25,496 nt of DNA, from the IMG/VR virus record IMGVR_UViG_3300017917_001241, positions 1-25,496 of that record. The stretch is one strand, 5' to 3'. Every line of letters starts with the position of its first letter. Position 1 is the stretch's first letter. The notes below the pieces were generated by a model, which was not told where the DNA came from, did no database searches, and saw only the letters and a program-made list of their open reading frames with translations. Positions 8,984 to 16,976 of the stretch are shown one piece after another. A program made the translations under genes and the position numbers. Source of the stretch: a virus.

Positions 8984-9012
8984 TTGACATAAATTAGGTT
9001 ATACTGTATATT
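8984..9012 (+). promoter_or_regulatory. Sigma-70-type promoter (TTGACA-17-TATATT)
   Basis: A perfect -35 (TTGACA, 8984-8989) is separated by 17 bp from TATATT (9007-9012). The predicted +1 is 9019, which is the A of an in-frame ATG. It lies back-to-back with the minus-strand late element at 8965-8972. Confidence 0.7.
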
Positions 9013-9300
9013 ATGGATATGAGCGAATTTCAGTCCTTACATGATTGGCAAGCTATTGACAAGCGAATCAGCAGCTCAATATGGGCATTGTATAATTTGC
9101 AACATAAACGGCAACTGGAGCTGATGTACAAAAATCTAACAAAAAGTGTTACGGGATTGAGTAAAGCAGATGTGGATAGGCGAAGATACGGGCACTCGCC
9201 CAAGTACGACGAACAGTTAGTAAAAGTGCAACAAGAGTTGCAAGAATTGCAATCATGGCTCATGTTTGCAACACTACTTGACGAAAAACCCAAAGAGTAG
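9013..9300 (+). CDS. Small protein of unknown function, probably early
   Basis: 95 residues from the first ATG at 9013; a second in-frame ATG lies at 9019. The sigma-70 promoter at 8984-9012 would start transcription at about 9019, so translation probably begins there as a leaderless message (MSEFQSLHDW, 93 residues). There is no Shine-Dalgarno site before either ATG. The protein is charged and mostly helical. Residues 68-92 (EQLVKVQQELQELQSWLMF) look like a short amphipathic or coiled-coil helix. I do not recognise a family. The gene is followed after 34 bp by another gene with its own promoter, whose -35 lies inside this coding sequence. Confidence 0.7.
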   Translation: MDMSEFQSLHDWQAIDKRISSSIWALYNLQHKRQLELMYKNLTKSVTGLSKADVDRRRYGHSPKYDEQLVKVQQELQELQSWLMFATLLDEKPKE

Positions 9301-9334: not shown

Positions 9335-10507
9335 ATGGCACTCGCACAGTCTGTTAAAGCACCCAAAAAAGCACCCAAAAAAACTCGTGACCCGTTGTTC
9401 ACTGACGAAAAGTACACCGGTGGTGAACCGGTTTGGGATACTGAACGTGCGTTAAAAATGACGCAGGAAGAATTTGATCACTTCCTACGTAAAGCATTCT
9501 TTTACTACAATTACTTCTATACTCAAAAAGATCTAAAGAAGTATGTAGTAAACTGGATGAAAGACAAATATACCAAAGCTGAAGTCAGCAAGTTTATTCG
9601 CAGCGGCGACCGTTCGGTACCGATGACAGTATGCAGTTTAATTAAAGCACACACACAAGGTATGCCTTTGCGCGAAAAAGAGTTACAGTTTGTTAAGGAT
9701 CGCATTTACGAAGTGCTTAACTCGGACGATGTTCCAGATGAGTCAATTGCTGAAGAAAAAACTGTTGCTCCTGCAGCGGTCAAAACTATTCAAGATCGAC
9801 TCAACGAAAAAACCAGCGAACATCTAGCACACTTTGATGGATTGTATGATGAAGTGGTTGCTGGAGCAACTGTAGATCCCAAAGCTTACGATTATTTTGT
9901 TACCAACAATGTACCACAAGGACAACTCAACAAGTTCGAGGACTACGTAGATACGCAAAAGATGTATCTAAACGCAGCCATTGACAAATTAGATGAGCAA
10001 TTTGTTGAAGCATATCGACACTATCGTGCAGCAGACTTCAAACGTCATCTGGCATTTTTTGATGCTATTCAGACAGCCATAGATCAATACAGGCAAGTTA
10101 AAAAAGCTACAAAAAAAGCTCGAGTAAAACGTGCGCCCAACAAAGAAAAAGTTGTCAGCAAGCTCAAGTACATGAAAGAAGAAAAGACACTTAAACTGGT
10201 GTCTATCAACCCTGTGGATATTATTGGAGCCCAAGAATTGTGGGCGTACAATACCAAAACTCGTAAACTTTACAAATACGTTGCTGATAGCCTTACTGGT
10301 CCTCTTGGAGTTAAAGGTACCAGTATCATCAACTTTGATACAGCAAAAAGCGTAGGCAAAACTCTACGCAAACCCGAAGAAAAACTCAAAGAATTTTCCC
10401 GAGCAAGCAAAGTACAACTTCGCAAGTTCCTTGACGAAATTAAAGCAACAGAAACTACGGGTAACGGACGCATGAATTCGGACATAGTTCTTCTAAAAGT
10501 TCAATAA
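9335..10507 (+). CDS. 390-aa basic protein of unknown function, probably early
   Basis: 390 residues; ATG with a strong AAGGAG five bases upstream and a near-consensus sigma-70 promoter before it, so it is expected to be highly expressed early by host polymerase. The N-terminus is Lys/Pro-rich (KAPKKAPKKTRD). Residues 25-130 are helical and aromatic (FDHFLRKAFFYYNYFY). Residues about 255-285 form a very basic segment (KKATKKARVKRAPNKEK). Residues 290-380 form a compact C-terminal region (NPVDIIGAQELWAYNTKTRK, VKGTSIINFD, KTLRKPEEKL). I recall similar proteins as conserved hypotheticals in T4-like marine phages, but no function. Basic segments hint at nucleic acid or ribosome contact, which is inference only. 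Its stop codon lies inside the late element for gp13. Confidence 0.8.
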   Translation: MALAQSVKAPKKAPKKTRDPLFTDEKYTGGEPVWDTERALKMTQEEFDHFLRKAFFYYNYFYTQKDLKKYVVNWMKDKYTKAEVSKFIRSGDRSVPMTVCSLIKAHTQGMPLREKELQFVKDRIYEVLNSDDVPDESIAEEKTVAPAAVKTIQDRLNEKTSEHLAHFDGLYDEVVAGATVDPKAYDYFVTNNVPQGQLNKFEDYVDTQKMYLNAAIDKLDEQFVEAYRHYRAADFKRHLAFFDAIQTAIDQYRQVKKATKKARVKRAPNKEKVVSKLKYMKEEKTLKLVSINPVDIIGAQELWAYNTKTRKLYKYVADSLTGPLGVKGTSIINFDTAKSVGKTLRKPEEKLKEFSRASKVQLRKFLDEIKATETTGNGRMNSDIVLLKVQ

Positions 10508-10510
10508 ATA
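10503..10510 (+). promoter_or_regulatory. Late-type promoter element for gp13
   Basis: AATAAATA, a close match to T4 TATAAATA, followed by C. The TAA within it (10505-10507) is the stop codon of the 390-aa gene. Predicted +1 is about 10516, leaving a 17-nt leader with AGGAAC before ATG 10533. Confidence 0.6.
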
Positions 10511-10532: not shown

Positions 10533-11453
10533 ATGTCCAATCCTTTTACTGGTAATGTTGTAGCAGATACAACTTATTTCTATGCTAACGGTAACTTAAT
10601 TACTGATAGTCTTTATAATGCCAACACTGGGTCAGGCACGGGTCATATTCAATACGACCCTGATGCAGAATGGTTAGATTCTTTAAATAAACGCAGGGCA
10701 TTAATTACTGACTATATCAGGATGCGGTTGGGCGACGGAATCGTTGATGTTGAGCTTGATAAAGAGCACTATGAAATGGCTATTAATCAAGCATTAATAA
10801 AATATCGTCAGCGAGCATCAAACAGCCAAGAAGAAAGTTATGCATTTCTAAAATTATACCCTGAAACGCAAGAAATTATATTGCCCGACATTGTAATGGA
10901 TGTTAGGGCTGCATATCGTAGAGGTATTGGATCAGTATCGGGTACAACTGCTAGCCAATTTGAACCGTTTGCATCAGGGTATCTAAACACATACATGCTA
11001 GTAGCTGGTCGAGTTGGCGGCTTGTTAAATTACGAATTGTTTGTTGACTATCAAAAACTAGCCATGCGTATGTTTGGTGGTTATTTGAATTTTACATTTA
11101 ATAAAACTACTAAAAAACTAACTCTTATTCGTAAAATTCCTTATGTAGGAGCAAATGCTGATCCCAACGGGTTTGAAGATGTGCTATTGCATTTGTACAA
11201 TTACAAACCCGATAGTATGTTATTAAACGACTATCAAGCATTTCCGTGGATACAAGAATATGCGTATAGCTTTGCTAAACGTATTATTGGCGAAGCTAGA
11301 GAAAAGTTTGCTTCAATTGCTGGTCCACAAGGTGGCACTCAGCTGAATGGCGCAAGCTTGAAAGCAGAAGCAGCAACAGAAATGGCTCAACTTGAACAAG
11401 AATTAAAAGATTATGTTGATGGATCACATCCGTTGACTTGGGTAATTGGATAA
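10533..11453 (+). CDS. gp13: gp13-like neck protein
   Basis: 306 residues, close to T4 gp13 (309). After about 50 variable residues the conserved plan appears: RALITDYIRMRLGDGIVDVELDK, a helix with INQALIKYRQRAS, then LYPETQEIILPDIVMDVRAAYR. It continues with QKLAMRMFGGYLNFTF and the C-terminal YAYSFAKRIIGEAREKF ... GTQLNGASLKAEAATEM, ending HPLTWVIG. The T4 counterpart ends similarly, with a GEAR-like helix, a glycine-rich loop and a PFGILVG end. In T4 it is a neck protein needed for head-tail joining. Here it is on the + strand, separated from gp14-gp15, which are inverted. The stop overlaps the next ATG (TAATG). Confidence 0.85.
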   Translation: MSNPFTGNVVADTTYFYANGNLITDSLYNANTGSGTGHIQYDPDAEWLDSLNKRRALITDYIRMRLGDGIVDVELDKEHYEMAINQALIKYRQRASNSQEESYAFLKLYPETQEIILPDIVMDVRAAYRRGIGSVSGTTASQFEPFASGYLNTYMLVAGRVGGLLNYELFVDYQKLAMRMFGGYLNFTFNKTTKKLTLIRKIPYVGANADPNGFEDVLLHLYNYKPDSMLLNDYQAFPWIQEYAYSFAKRIIGEAREKFASIAGPQGGTQLNGASLKAEAATEMAQLEQELKDYVDGSHPLTWVIG

Positions 11454-11827
11454 TGAAAATACGAGATATTATTACAGAAGAAGCCGGAGTATTACAAGAT
11501 CGCCAACGCAGAGCCACTCGCGGTTTGAACAAGTTTACTGATGGTAAAAAATGGAATAGCGATTATACTTTGTATAGGCTAGGATTAGCATTAGCAGCAA
11601 CTGATGGTAAAACCATGCCCGAAGTAGATCAAGAATCTTGGATTGGCAAATGGAAACTTACTGCTCCATACAGTCAAGAAGAACAAGATATGCTTAAACT
11701 GGCCTATAAAGCAGTGCATGCCGAACACGAGGATATGAATCACGGGGATTTAAGAAGCCAAGAAGGATTAACGGTGAATAAAACCAGTCCGGTTGCAAAA
11801 CCAAAAAAGAATAAGTATGGTATTTGA
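11453..11827 (+). CDS. Small protein with MKIRDIITE N-terminus, unknown function
   Basis: 124 residues from the ATG at 11453, which shares a base with the gp13 stop codon. A longer reading from a TTG at 11438 is possible but unlikely, because TAATG coupling is used throughout this phage. The N-terminus (MKIRDIITEEAG) is followed by a compact region with aromatic and acidic residues (SDYTLYRLGLALAATDG, WIGKWKLTAPYSQEEQDMLK). The C-terminal tail is basic (KPKKNKYG). I do not recognise the family; position after gp13 suggests a virion- or assembly-related role. Its TGA stop (11825-11827) lies within the -35 of the kinase promoter. Confidence 0.75.
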   Translation: MKIRDIITEEAGVLQDRQRRATRGLNKFTDGKKWNSDYTLYRLGLALAATDGKTMPEVDQESWIGKWKLTAPYSQEEQDMLKLAYKAVHAEHEDMNHGDLRSQEGLTVNKTSPVAKPKKNKYGI

Positions 11828-11852
11828 CATTCATTATTTTTTATTTTAAAAT
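11824..11852 (+). promoter_or_regulatory. Sigma-70-type promoter (TTGACA-17-TAAAAT) for the kinase gene
   Basis: A perfect -35 TTGACA (11824-11829), 17-bp spacer and TAAAAT (11847-11852). The predicted +1 (about 11859) falls in the loop of the terminator hairpin at 11848-11874. Transcripts from this promoter would therefore lack the hairpin's 5' arm and expose the AGGGG ribosome-binding site at 11862-11866. Confidence 0.75.
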
Positions 11853-11874
11853 GCTCCGTATAGGGGCATTTTTT
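11848..11874 (+). terminator. Intrinsic terminator after gp13 operon, overlapping kinase RBS
   Basis: Stem of ten pairs: AAAATGCTCC (11848-11857) with GGGGCATTTT (11863-11872), one G-U pair, loop GTATA, and a run of six T (11869-11874). It ends the gp13 unit, and its 3' arm contains the AGGGG site eight bases before the kinase ATG at 11875. Confidence 0.75.
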
Positions 11875-12534
11875 ATGATCATTGGTATTTGTGGATTCAT
11901 TGGGTCAGGCAAAGATACAGCAGCTAACTATCTTGTAGCACAACATGGATTTAAACGCGACAGTTTTGCTGGAGCACTGAAAGATGCAGTGGCTACAGTT
12001 TTTGGGTGGGATAGAGAACTACTTGAGGGACTAACACCAGAGGCAAGAGCATGGCGCGAACAAGTAGATCCTTGGTGGTCTAAAAGACTTAAAATGCCAG
12101 AGTTGACTCCGCGGTGGGTTTTACAATACTGGGGCACAGAAGTTTGCCGACAAGGGTTCCATGATGATATTTGGATTGCTGCTTTAGAGAATAGATTACG
12201 TCAACGTACCGGGCATACAGTTATCAGTGATGTTAGATTCCCTAACGAAATTAAGGCAATCAGGAACACAGGAGGAGTAATTGCTTGGGTGCAACGTGGC
12301 CCACTTCCTGAGTGGTATGAATGTGCTCTAAGGGAAAACACCACGCACGAAGACGAACAGTGGTTACTTGAAGATGCACATCAATTAATGCCCCAAAGGT
12401 ATCCTAAAGTTCATCGTAGCGAATGGGCTTGGGTAGGAACCACGTTTAATTATCAAATTGATAATAACGGCACAGTCGAATGGCTGTATCAACAACTCAA
12501 TAATCTGCTACCAGCGGACTTTCTCGCCAAGTAG
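11875..12534 (+). CDS. gp1: Deoxynucleoside monophosphate kinase (T4 gp1-like)
   Basis: 219 residues from ATG 11875. An upstream in-frame extension to 11824 would cross the terminator and lacks a good start. The P-loop is G7-F-I-G-S-G-K13-D-T. Conserved blocks follow: LQYWGTEVCRQGFHDDIWI (LID/substrate region), TVISDVRFPNEIKAIR, GGVIAWVQRG, and HRSEWAWVGTTFNYQIDN near the end. T4 gp1 (241 residues) phosphorylates dGMP, dTMP and hydroxymethyl-dCMP to feed phage DNA synthesis; which bases this one prefers cannot be read. The ribosome site AGGGG sits in the 3' arm of the preceding terminator. A sigma-70 promoter precedes it, consistent with an early nucleotide-metabolism gene placed inside the late cluster. 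The 3' end overlaps the convergent zinc-finger gene by 38 bp. Confidence 0.9.
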   Translation: MIIGICGFIGSGKDTAANYLVAQHGFKRDSFAGALKDAVATVFGWDRELLEGLTPEARAWREQVDPWWSKRLKMPELTPRWVLQYWGTEVCRQGFHDDIWIAALENRLRQRTGHTVISDVRFPNEIKAIRNTGGVIAWVQRGPLPEWYECALRENTTHEDEQWLLEDAHQLMPQRYPKVHRSEWAWVGTTFNYQIDNNGTVEWLYQQLNNLLPADFLAK

Positions 12535-12841
12535 TTTTAGATTGATTTAACTCAATTCTACAATTGGCGCAAACACTACGCAAATTAGACCACGTATTAT
12601 TTTTTAAATTGCCGTCGATATAAAATACAAAAATTTGATGCGGTACTCTAGCTGTAAAGTTGCATCGTTCACAGATTAATTTTTTCTTATAGCCAGTTTT
12701 GGTCCAACTTGGCATTTCCTTAATACGTTTTCCTTTTCTAGCACAACTAGCGCAGATACGTCTATAATAGACTTTTTCTCCTTTGCGATAATTTACCGCA
12801 GCCCAATTGCCATTACACATAGTACATAAAGGTCGTTTCAT
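12497..12841 (-). CDS. Four-CxxC zinc protein with degenerate HNH core
   Basis: 114 residues. Four CxxC pairs (C6/C9, C30/C33, C57/C60, C91/C94) suggest two zinc sites. Residues 57-94 have the HNH/McrA layout: CERC, then VFYIDGNLKNNTWSNLRSVC, then ANC. However, the general-base histidine of the usual HH(I/V)DG motif is Tyr74, and the terminal NCH histidine is Arg95, so a normal HNH nuclease active site is absent. I recall similar short proteins in T4-like marine phages annotated as hypothetical or HNH-like. A DNA- or protein-binding role is more likely than homing. No Shine-Dalgarno site precedes the ATG; a perfect late octamer ends five bases before it. It converges on and overlaps the kinase gene. 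Confidence 0.75.
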   Translation of the reverse strand: MKRPLCTMCNGNWAAVNYRKGEKVYYRRICASCARKGKRIKEMPSWTKTGYKKKLICERCNFTARVPHQIFVFYIDGNLKNNTWSNLRSVCANCRIELNQSKTTWRESPLVADY

Positions 12842-12904: not shown

Positions 12905-12912
12905 AATAAATA
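12905..12912 (+). promoter_or_regulatory. Late-type promoter element for the sheath gene
   Basis: AATAAATA followed by C, the same sequence as before gp13. Predicted +1 is about 12918, giving a 25-nt leader with AAGGA (12931-12935) seven bases before ATG 12943. Confidence 0.6.
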
Positions 12913-16912: not shown

Positions 16913-16938
16913 TACTAACTTTTAGCAATAAAAGATTA

Positions 16939-16966
16939 AAGCCTGGTTTACCCCAGGCTTTTTTTT
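16939..16966 (+). terminator. Strong intrinsic terminator after gp19
   Basis: An 8-bp perfect stem, AAGCCTGG (16939-16946) with CCAGGCTT (16953-16960), loop TTTACC, followed by a run of eight T (16959-16966). It isolates the tube transcript from the following genes, which have their own late element three bases later. Confidence 0.92.
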
Positions 16967-16968
16967 GA

Positions 16969-16976
16969 CATAAATA
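16969..16976 (+). promoter_or_regulatory. Late-type promoter element for the tube-fold paralogue
   Basis: CATAAATA directly after the gp19 terminator. Predicted +1 is about 16982, leaving an 11-nt leader with a weak GGA site before ATG 16993. A TTGACA (16965-16970) overlaps it, but no good -10 stands 16-18 bp downstream. Confidence 0.55.

Follow-up and report, generated by a model that had tools for sequence, protein, structure and literature searches.

A host-type promoter nested in a ribosome-site hairpin: a probable promoter-tied switch for translation of the deoxynucleotide kinase gene in giant T4-like phages

Translation that depends on the promoter from which an RNA was made is known for the transposase genes of IS10 and IS50, in which the read-through RNA hides the ribosome-binding site while the RNA from the transposase promoter itself lacks the 5' arm of the hairpin. 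The arms of these hairpins come from the end of the element, and the aim is protection upon insertion downstream of promoters. The hairpin described below follows the same logic of hiding, but is unrelated in sequence. Among phages, translation hairpins are described for genes e, soc, and 49, for I-TevI, I-TevII, and I-TevIII, and for segB of T4, and for mobE of Aeh1 (PMC3014915, PMC2988022); for gene e, a reduction of 100-fold in the long RNA is given in a review (PMC3014915), and the genes with such hairpins are all late genes carried on early or middle transcripts (PMC2988022). As to jumbo phages, RpoD-like promoters in the presumed early region, late-type ATAAATA motifs with the TAAATA core before structural genes, a gp55-like sigma factor, and 74 predicted terminators are reported for CBB (PMC5259590). 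The passages of that paper covered by keyword describe no ribosome-site hairpin around promoters, and the word "hairpin" is absent from it; such hairpins were found in CBB in the present analysis (see below).

The stretch of DNA analyzed here, referred to as the window, is the whole of 25,496 nucleotides from IMG/VR virus record IMGVR_UViG_3300017917_001241, and represents a fragment of a giant T4-like phage, for which searching phage records at the nucleotide level yielded one weak match. The features of the locus are listed in Table 1. The order of neck gene, small ORF, kinase gene, and tail sheath gene is common to several cultured jumbo phages, and the nearest cultured relatives of the window kinase are those of the jumbo phages Phosso, Kaldavass, XbC2, BF, PA5oct, CBB, GAP32, 121Q, and RaK2. 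The gene directly upstream of the kinase had been taken as gp13 in the original prediction; this was incorrect, a short ORF intervening after the neck gene. As the kinase start, ATG at 11851, which lies within the 5' arm and in frame with 11875, was considered and rejected; the start was set at 11875 because the upstream ATG lacks a ribosome-binding site and its frame is not conserved, being out of frame in the relative L002. On the reverse strand, an ORF of 114 amino acids (12497-12841), with TAAATA just before its start, extends into the 3' end of the kinase.

Table 1. Positions of the genes and of the observed and predicted control elements around the kinase gene in the window.
Feature	Position	Strand	Remarks
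T4-type late promoter motif TAAATA before neck gene, context AATAAATAC	10505..10510	+	
Neck protein gene, T4 neck type	10533..11453	+	PHROG 211 "head-tail adaptor Ad2", E 3e-31
124-aa ORF, no assigned function	11453..11827	+	ATG overlaps neck stop (TAATG); own stop TGA in -35 box
-35 box TTGACA	11824..11829	+	Conserved in relatives
-10 box TAAAAT	11847..11852	+	17 nt after -35; last five bases form outer 5' arm of hairpin
5' arm AAAATGCTCC	11848..11857	+	Predicted to be absent from nested-promoter RNA
Predicted transcription start, in loop	11859..11860	+	7th-8th base after -10 box; A at 11860 likeliest
Shine-Dalgarno AGGGG	11862..11866	+	8 nt before ATG 11875-11877
3' arm GGGGCATTTT, holds ribosome-binding site	11863..11872	+	10 pairs with 5' arm, one G-U
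T-run; with hairpin, intrinsic terminator form ending at start codon	11869..11874	+	U-run in 20/108 relatives
Deoxynucleoside monophosphate kinase gene, T4 gp1 type	11875..12534	+	PHROG 139, E 1e-48; Pfam DNMK, E 2e-10
T4-type late promoter motif of downstream tail sheath gene	12907..12912	+	Conserved in relatives

Upon recheck, the elements of the original prediction were found exactly in place: the promoter TTGACA-17-TAAAAT (11824-11852), the hairpin (11848-11872), AGGGG (11862-11866), the ATG at 11875, and the stop codon TGA (11825-11827) within TTGACA. The loop of the hairpin is GTATA (11858-11862). Judging from the spacing, transcription of the kinase gene would start at 11859-11860; A is present at position 7 after the -10 box in 76 of 108 relatives and at position 8 in 67. 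The region of 101 nt folded with z = -2.3 against shuffles, giving the hairpin as originally drawn, and no Rfam family matched above the gathering score in the window. Promoter matches of 11/12 were three in the window against 1.1 expected from shuffled windows, and sigma-70-like sites overall were no more frequent than in shuffles, so that the promoter cannot be judged from the window alone; the case against chance is its conservation and covariation in relatives.

For this comparison, eighty viral contigs with close kinases and two further searches yielded 118 distinct upstream regions, and a promoter was called at a score of at least 9/12 after a spacing penalty. A near-consensus sigma-70 promoter was identified at the same place in 114 of the 118, with a spacer of 17 in 96. 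The end of the -10 box is located 18-27 nt before the kinase ATG in nearly all of the 118, and 6 nt before it in six others. In 108 relatives the -10 box stands at the hairpin distance, the promoter overlapping the hairpin and the 3' arm reaching the ribosome site, and in 56 of these the TGA stop lies inside TTGA of the -35 box. The relatives were collected via close kinase homology, and the spread outside that group is represented by fewer sequences.

The pairing was examined in 82 distinct regions that remained after reduction. The mean pairing score was 15.4 when the two halves of the hairpin were cognate and 11.0 when they were not (z = 14), and the observed mean was not attained in any of 20,000 permutations. 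A total of 71 distinct helices were found among the relatives, for example, AATGTCC/GGACATT, AATATCC/GGATATT, and AATTGTTCT/GGGACAATT, with AAAATGCTCC/GGGGCATTTT in the clade of the window. To lessen the effect of relatedness, 34 phylogenetically independent tip pairs were taken from the kinase tree; compensatory changes on both sides of the stem were counted 30 times, changes on one side that left the pair intact 35 times, and breaks 31 times, and after sliding the register by 2 or 3 positions, the counts were 3-5 double changes and 65-102 breaks. The register was fitted to each sequence, somewhat favoring the true one; in the swap tests each combination found its own best helix or fold. In a MAFFT alignment of 27 sequences, 92.6% of cells were paired and 34 double-change cells were found against 9.2 in shuffles (0/500). 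The consensus by RNAalifold was poor on the terminator-class alignment because two registers are mixed there. The compensatory changes anticipated in related phages are thus present and, at the level of sequence, this covariation shows that the pairing has been under long-term selection in about a hundred uncultured phages. No such hairpin is carried by the ORF 9335 homologues of these phages, although their promoter is of the same type (difference of -0.2 to 2.1 kcal/mol), indicating that the kinase hairpin is not a by-product of promoter placement.

If transcription starts as predicted, the promoter-derived RNA lacks the 5' arm, and selection on the pairing must then act via the read-through RNA or via DNA. 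The dyad could instead be a DNA operator, with a repressor or activator binding to an inverted repeat that spans the -10 box and the predicted start site, which is a usual position for operators. The sequence of the dyad is, however, not conserved, for the two sides change together through the 71 helices and G-U pairs occur, as predicted for RNA pairing and not for a protein site; an operator is therefore very improbable. Equally little weight can be given to a conditional sensor, with the hairpin opening in the long RNA by temperature, by a ligand, or by cleavage at GGAG as by T4 RegB, since loop and stem vary freely and little is conserved beyond the pairing and the ribosome site, even though GGAG, the RegB target in T4 (PMC3014915), is located in or beside the 3' arm in many relatives. 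In seven relatives (L090, L095, L105, L111, L149, L150, and L156), a longer alternative hairpin ATTCTCC...GGAGAAT was observed upstream of the kinase gene; its 5' arm occupies part of the promoter spacer, and an inner stem includes the -10 box TATACT.

The consequence of the pairing for ribosome access was estimated as the predicted energy of opening bases -14 to +3 around the ATG, the long RNA including 40 nt upstream of the start site; the values are from thermodynamic folding, which ignores co-transcriptional kinetics and host factors. For the 108 loci, the mean opening energy was predicted to be 10.6 kcal/mol for RNA that reads through, 1.9 for RNA begun at the nested promoter, and 6.5 when the upstream half was taken from another relative; at 103 loci, the long and short RNAs were 4 kcal/mol or more apart. 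For the window kinase, the predicted values were 12.5 (long) and 1.6 (short) kcal/mol. When the assumed start was moved by -3 to +2 nt, the mean of the short RNA changed only from 2.7 to 1.7. The hairpin was weak or absent in a few relatives (L122, L080, and L121). The kinases of Atu_ph07 and Phosso stand behind strong hairpins (z = -3.1 and -2.8, respectively) with less distinct promoters; in the enterobacterial jumbo phages CBB, BF, and GAP32, a terminator is located upstream of the kinase gene with the ribosome site not within it, and no such element was seen at the kinase of PA5oct. The predicted energies agree with the proposal that the ribosome site is hidden in read-through RNA and free in RNA from the nested promoter.

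In the window, the hairpin also has the form of an intrinsic terminator, with a GC-rich stem proper of six pairs (TGCTCC/GGGGCA), a 5-nt loop, and U6, the remaining four pairs being an A-tract with the U-tract. A terminator scan of the window did not list this hairpin, probably due to the counting of A-U pairs as stem. It could be argued that the hairpin serves only as an intrinsic terminator for the neck operon, on which promoter and ribosome site of the kinase overlap through compactness of the genome, in line with the good form in the window and with the annotated or evident terminators before the kinase genes of Munch, CBB, BF, GAP32, and XaC1. This is, nevertheless, unlikely: the U-run right before the kinase ATG was found in 20 of 108 relatives, all in or near the clade of the window, whereas in most of the remaining 88 the stem that covers the ribosome site is retained through compensatory changes. 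The low number of U-runs indicates that hiding of the ribosome site is the conserved core and termination an added layer. The terminator with a nested promoter, as originally claimed, is thus present in the window, but does not hold for the relatives in general. Since 20 nt separate the stop codon of the small ORF from the 5' arm, a ribosome terminating at this stop should not melt the hairpin.

TAAATA is the core of the T4 late promoter. Besides the neck and sheath genes, this motif is present before the tail tube gene (16264), ORF 16993, and ORF 20194 in the window, in which it was found 12-40 nt before plus-strand starts five times against 0.26 expected (p = 5e-5); exact TATAAATA was not enriched in the window. 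It is located upstream of 90 of 96 relatives of the neck gene, and the upstream neck operon is, from these sequences, probably late, the motif at 10505 being the likely source of late read-through RNA. The window kinase carries the sigma-70-type promoter and no TAAATA. These late motifs at the neck and sheath genes lend support to the reversed timing that had been proposed, with late read-through silent and the sigma-70 message active, the timing itself being presumed. The upstream genes 9019 and 9335 carry sigma-70-like promoters, so that early read-through is also possible. At 16938-16976 of the window, a strong terminator AAAGCCTGG/CCAGGCTTT is followed at once by TTTTTTTTGACATAAATAA, a late motif, before ORF 16993.

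These observations, from covariation and predicted energies, altogether support the original interpretation, and make it highly probable that the element is a switch through which translation of the kinase depends on the promoter where the RNA was started. As envisaged, with start site, read-through, termination, effect on translation, and timing all presumed, RNA reading through from the neck operon would contain both arms and fold into the hairpin; in the clade of the window, it would probably mostly terminate at the U-run before the ATG, and such RNA as continues would have its Shine-Dalgarno sequence paired and be poorly translated. RNA made by host-type (sigma-70) polymerase from the nested promoter would start in the loop without the 5' arm, could neither terminate there nor hide the ribosome site, and would be translated. 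The kinase would then be made from an early or middle promoter of the sigma-70 type and not from late read-through, because the upstream operon with its TAAATA promoter is probably late.

The arrangement resembles the T4 e and soc kind in two respects. Long transcripts are predicted to hide the ribosome site in a helix, pairing of the Shine-Dalgarno sequence being indicated by predicted folding and covariation, and the promoter lies in the region of the 5' arm, with the -10 box overlapping the arm and the predicted start in the loop, so placed that its RNA omits the arm and is predicted to be translated. It differs in that genes of the T4 kind are freed by a T4 late promoter (the intron genes by a middle or late one), and the window kinase by one of the sigma-70 type; a late freeing promoter was found at the neck and sheath genes and not at the kinase. 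It also differs in that the kinase is a gene of nucleotide metabolism and the incoming RNA is probably late, the reverse of gene e, and in that the kinase hairpin can also be an intrinsic terminator.

A similar arrangement was found at other genes. At the neck gene, a late promoter is inside a predicted ribosome-site hairpin in many relatives, including CBB, GAP32, BF, XaC1, Kaldavass, XbC2, Munch, and 121Q; for 44 loci, the predicted opening energies averaged 12.1 (long), 2.6 (short), and 6.0 (swapped) kcal/mol, with a difference of at least 5 kcal/mol in 32. For the neck gene of 121Q, the start used in the 44-locus set is inside the stem, and a downstream start gives 14.8 against 3.1; the effect at the neck gene of the window is small (8.2 against 4.4). 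At the sheath gene of CBB, BF, Kaldavass, Munch, XaC1, 121Q, and RaK2, the order is ATCCTCC (or a close variant), late motif, GGAGGAT, and ATG; in the full set of sheath loci the effect is less marked (23 of 93). In a wider scan of eight related genomes or large contigs and the window, a difference of at least 5 kcal/mol was found at 21 of the 127 genes that have a sigma-70-like promoter and at 43 of the 273 that have TAAATA, against 18 of the 315 that have neither (p = 5e-4 and 5e-5, respectively, by Fisher test), values that stand for enrichments and not for a gene list since starts and promoters were called by simple rules and the 127 include the window kinase and those of four contigs. A sigma-70-like promoter in a ribosome-site hairpin was observed at CBB 14239, 252796, and 272816, at 121Q 178045, and at Atu_ph07 240018 (minus strand), some of these genes with a U-run before the ATG. 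A late motif inside a AACTCCAA...TTGGAGTT hairpin, with a U-run before the ATG, is common to CBB 231665 and 121Q 35077, which seem to be related genes (MQKKELLNAILE / MSYEELYKAIME).

In the six kinase relatives with the -10 box 6 nt before the ATG (L049, L050, L071, L072, L020, and L065), neither a ribosome site nor a hairpin was found. With this spacing the RNA would begin at the ATG, and these genes are probably a leaderless version of the same gene. Likewise, TAAATA is located exactly 5 nt before an in-frame ATG in 62 of 104 relatives of the neck gene, so that the expected late start falls on the ATG; in examples of such neck starts (L051, L110, L119, and L043), no Shine-Dalgarno sequence was seen, and these genes probably give leaderless late mRNAs. 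In the region 8984-9021 of the window, TTGACA-17-TATATT ends 6 nt before the ATG of ORF 9019-9300, and a gap of 6-7 nt is kept in L002, L007, L008, and L009; the mRNA of this ORF is probably leaderless and made from a host-type promoter. Translation of a leaderless gene without a Shine-Dalgarno sequence would likewise depend chiefly on RNA from the gene's own promoter, suggesting that hairpin and leaderless start are two solutions to one problem.

The mechanism is of the T4 gene e/soc/I-TevI kind; what is new is that the promoter is of the sigma-70 type and the gene not late, that a terminator coincides with the hairpin, and that the spread is broad. In the literature covered in part by the search, no jumbo-phage precedent was found for the sigma-70 version, the terminator overlap, or the breadth. 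More tentatively, and with somewhat less than even confidence, translation tied to a gene's own promoter may be widespread in T4-like jumbo phages and not confined to a few late genes, with host-type and late promoters in ribosome-site hairpins at many genes and leaderless starts serving the same end at genes that lack the hairpin. If it is so widespread, genes of different timing could share one strand without translation from each other's transcripts. As to the kinase itself, a mechanism known from a few late genes of T4 would now include a gene that is not late and has a sigma-70 promoter, which suggests how a gene between late structural genes can keep its own timing. It also follows that the abundance of operon-level RNA in these phages need not mirror the protein made, and that predicted terminators directly before start codons may be gates of translation. 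Cultured phages 121Q (on E. coli), CBB, and Atu_ph07 allow direct testing.
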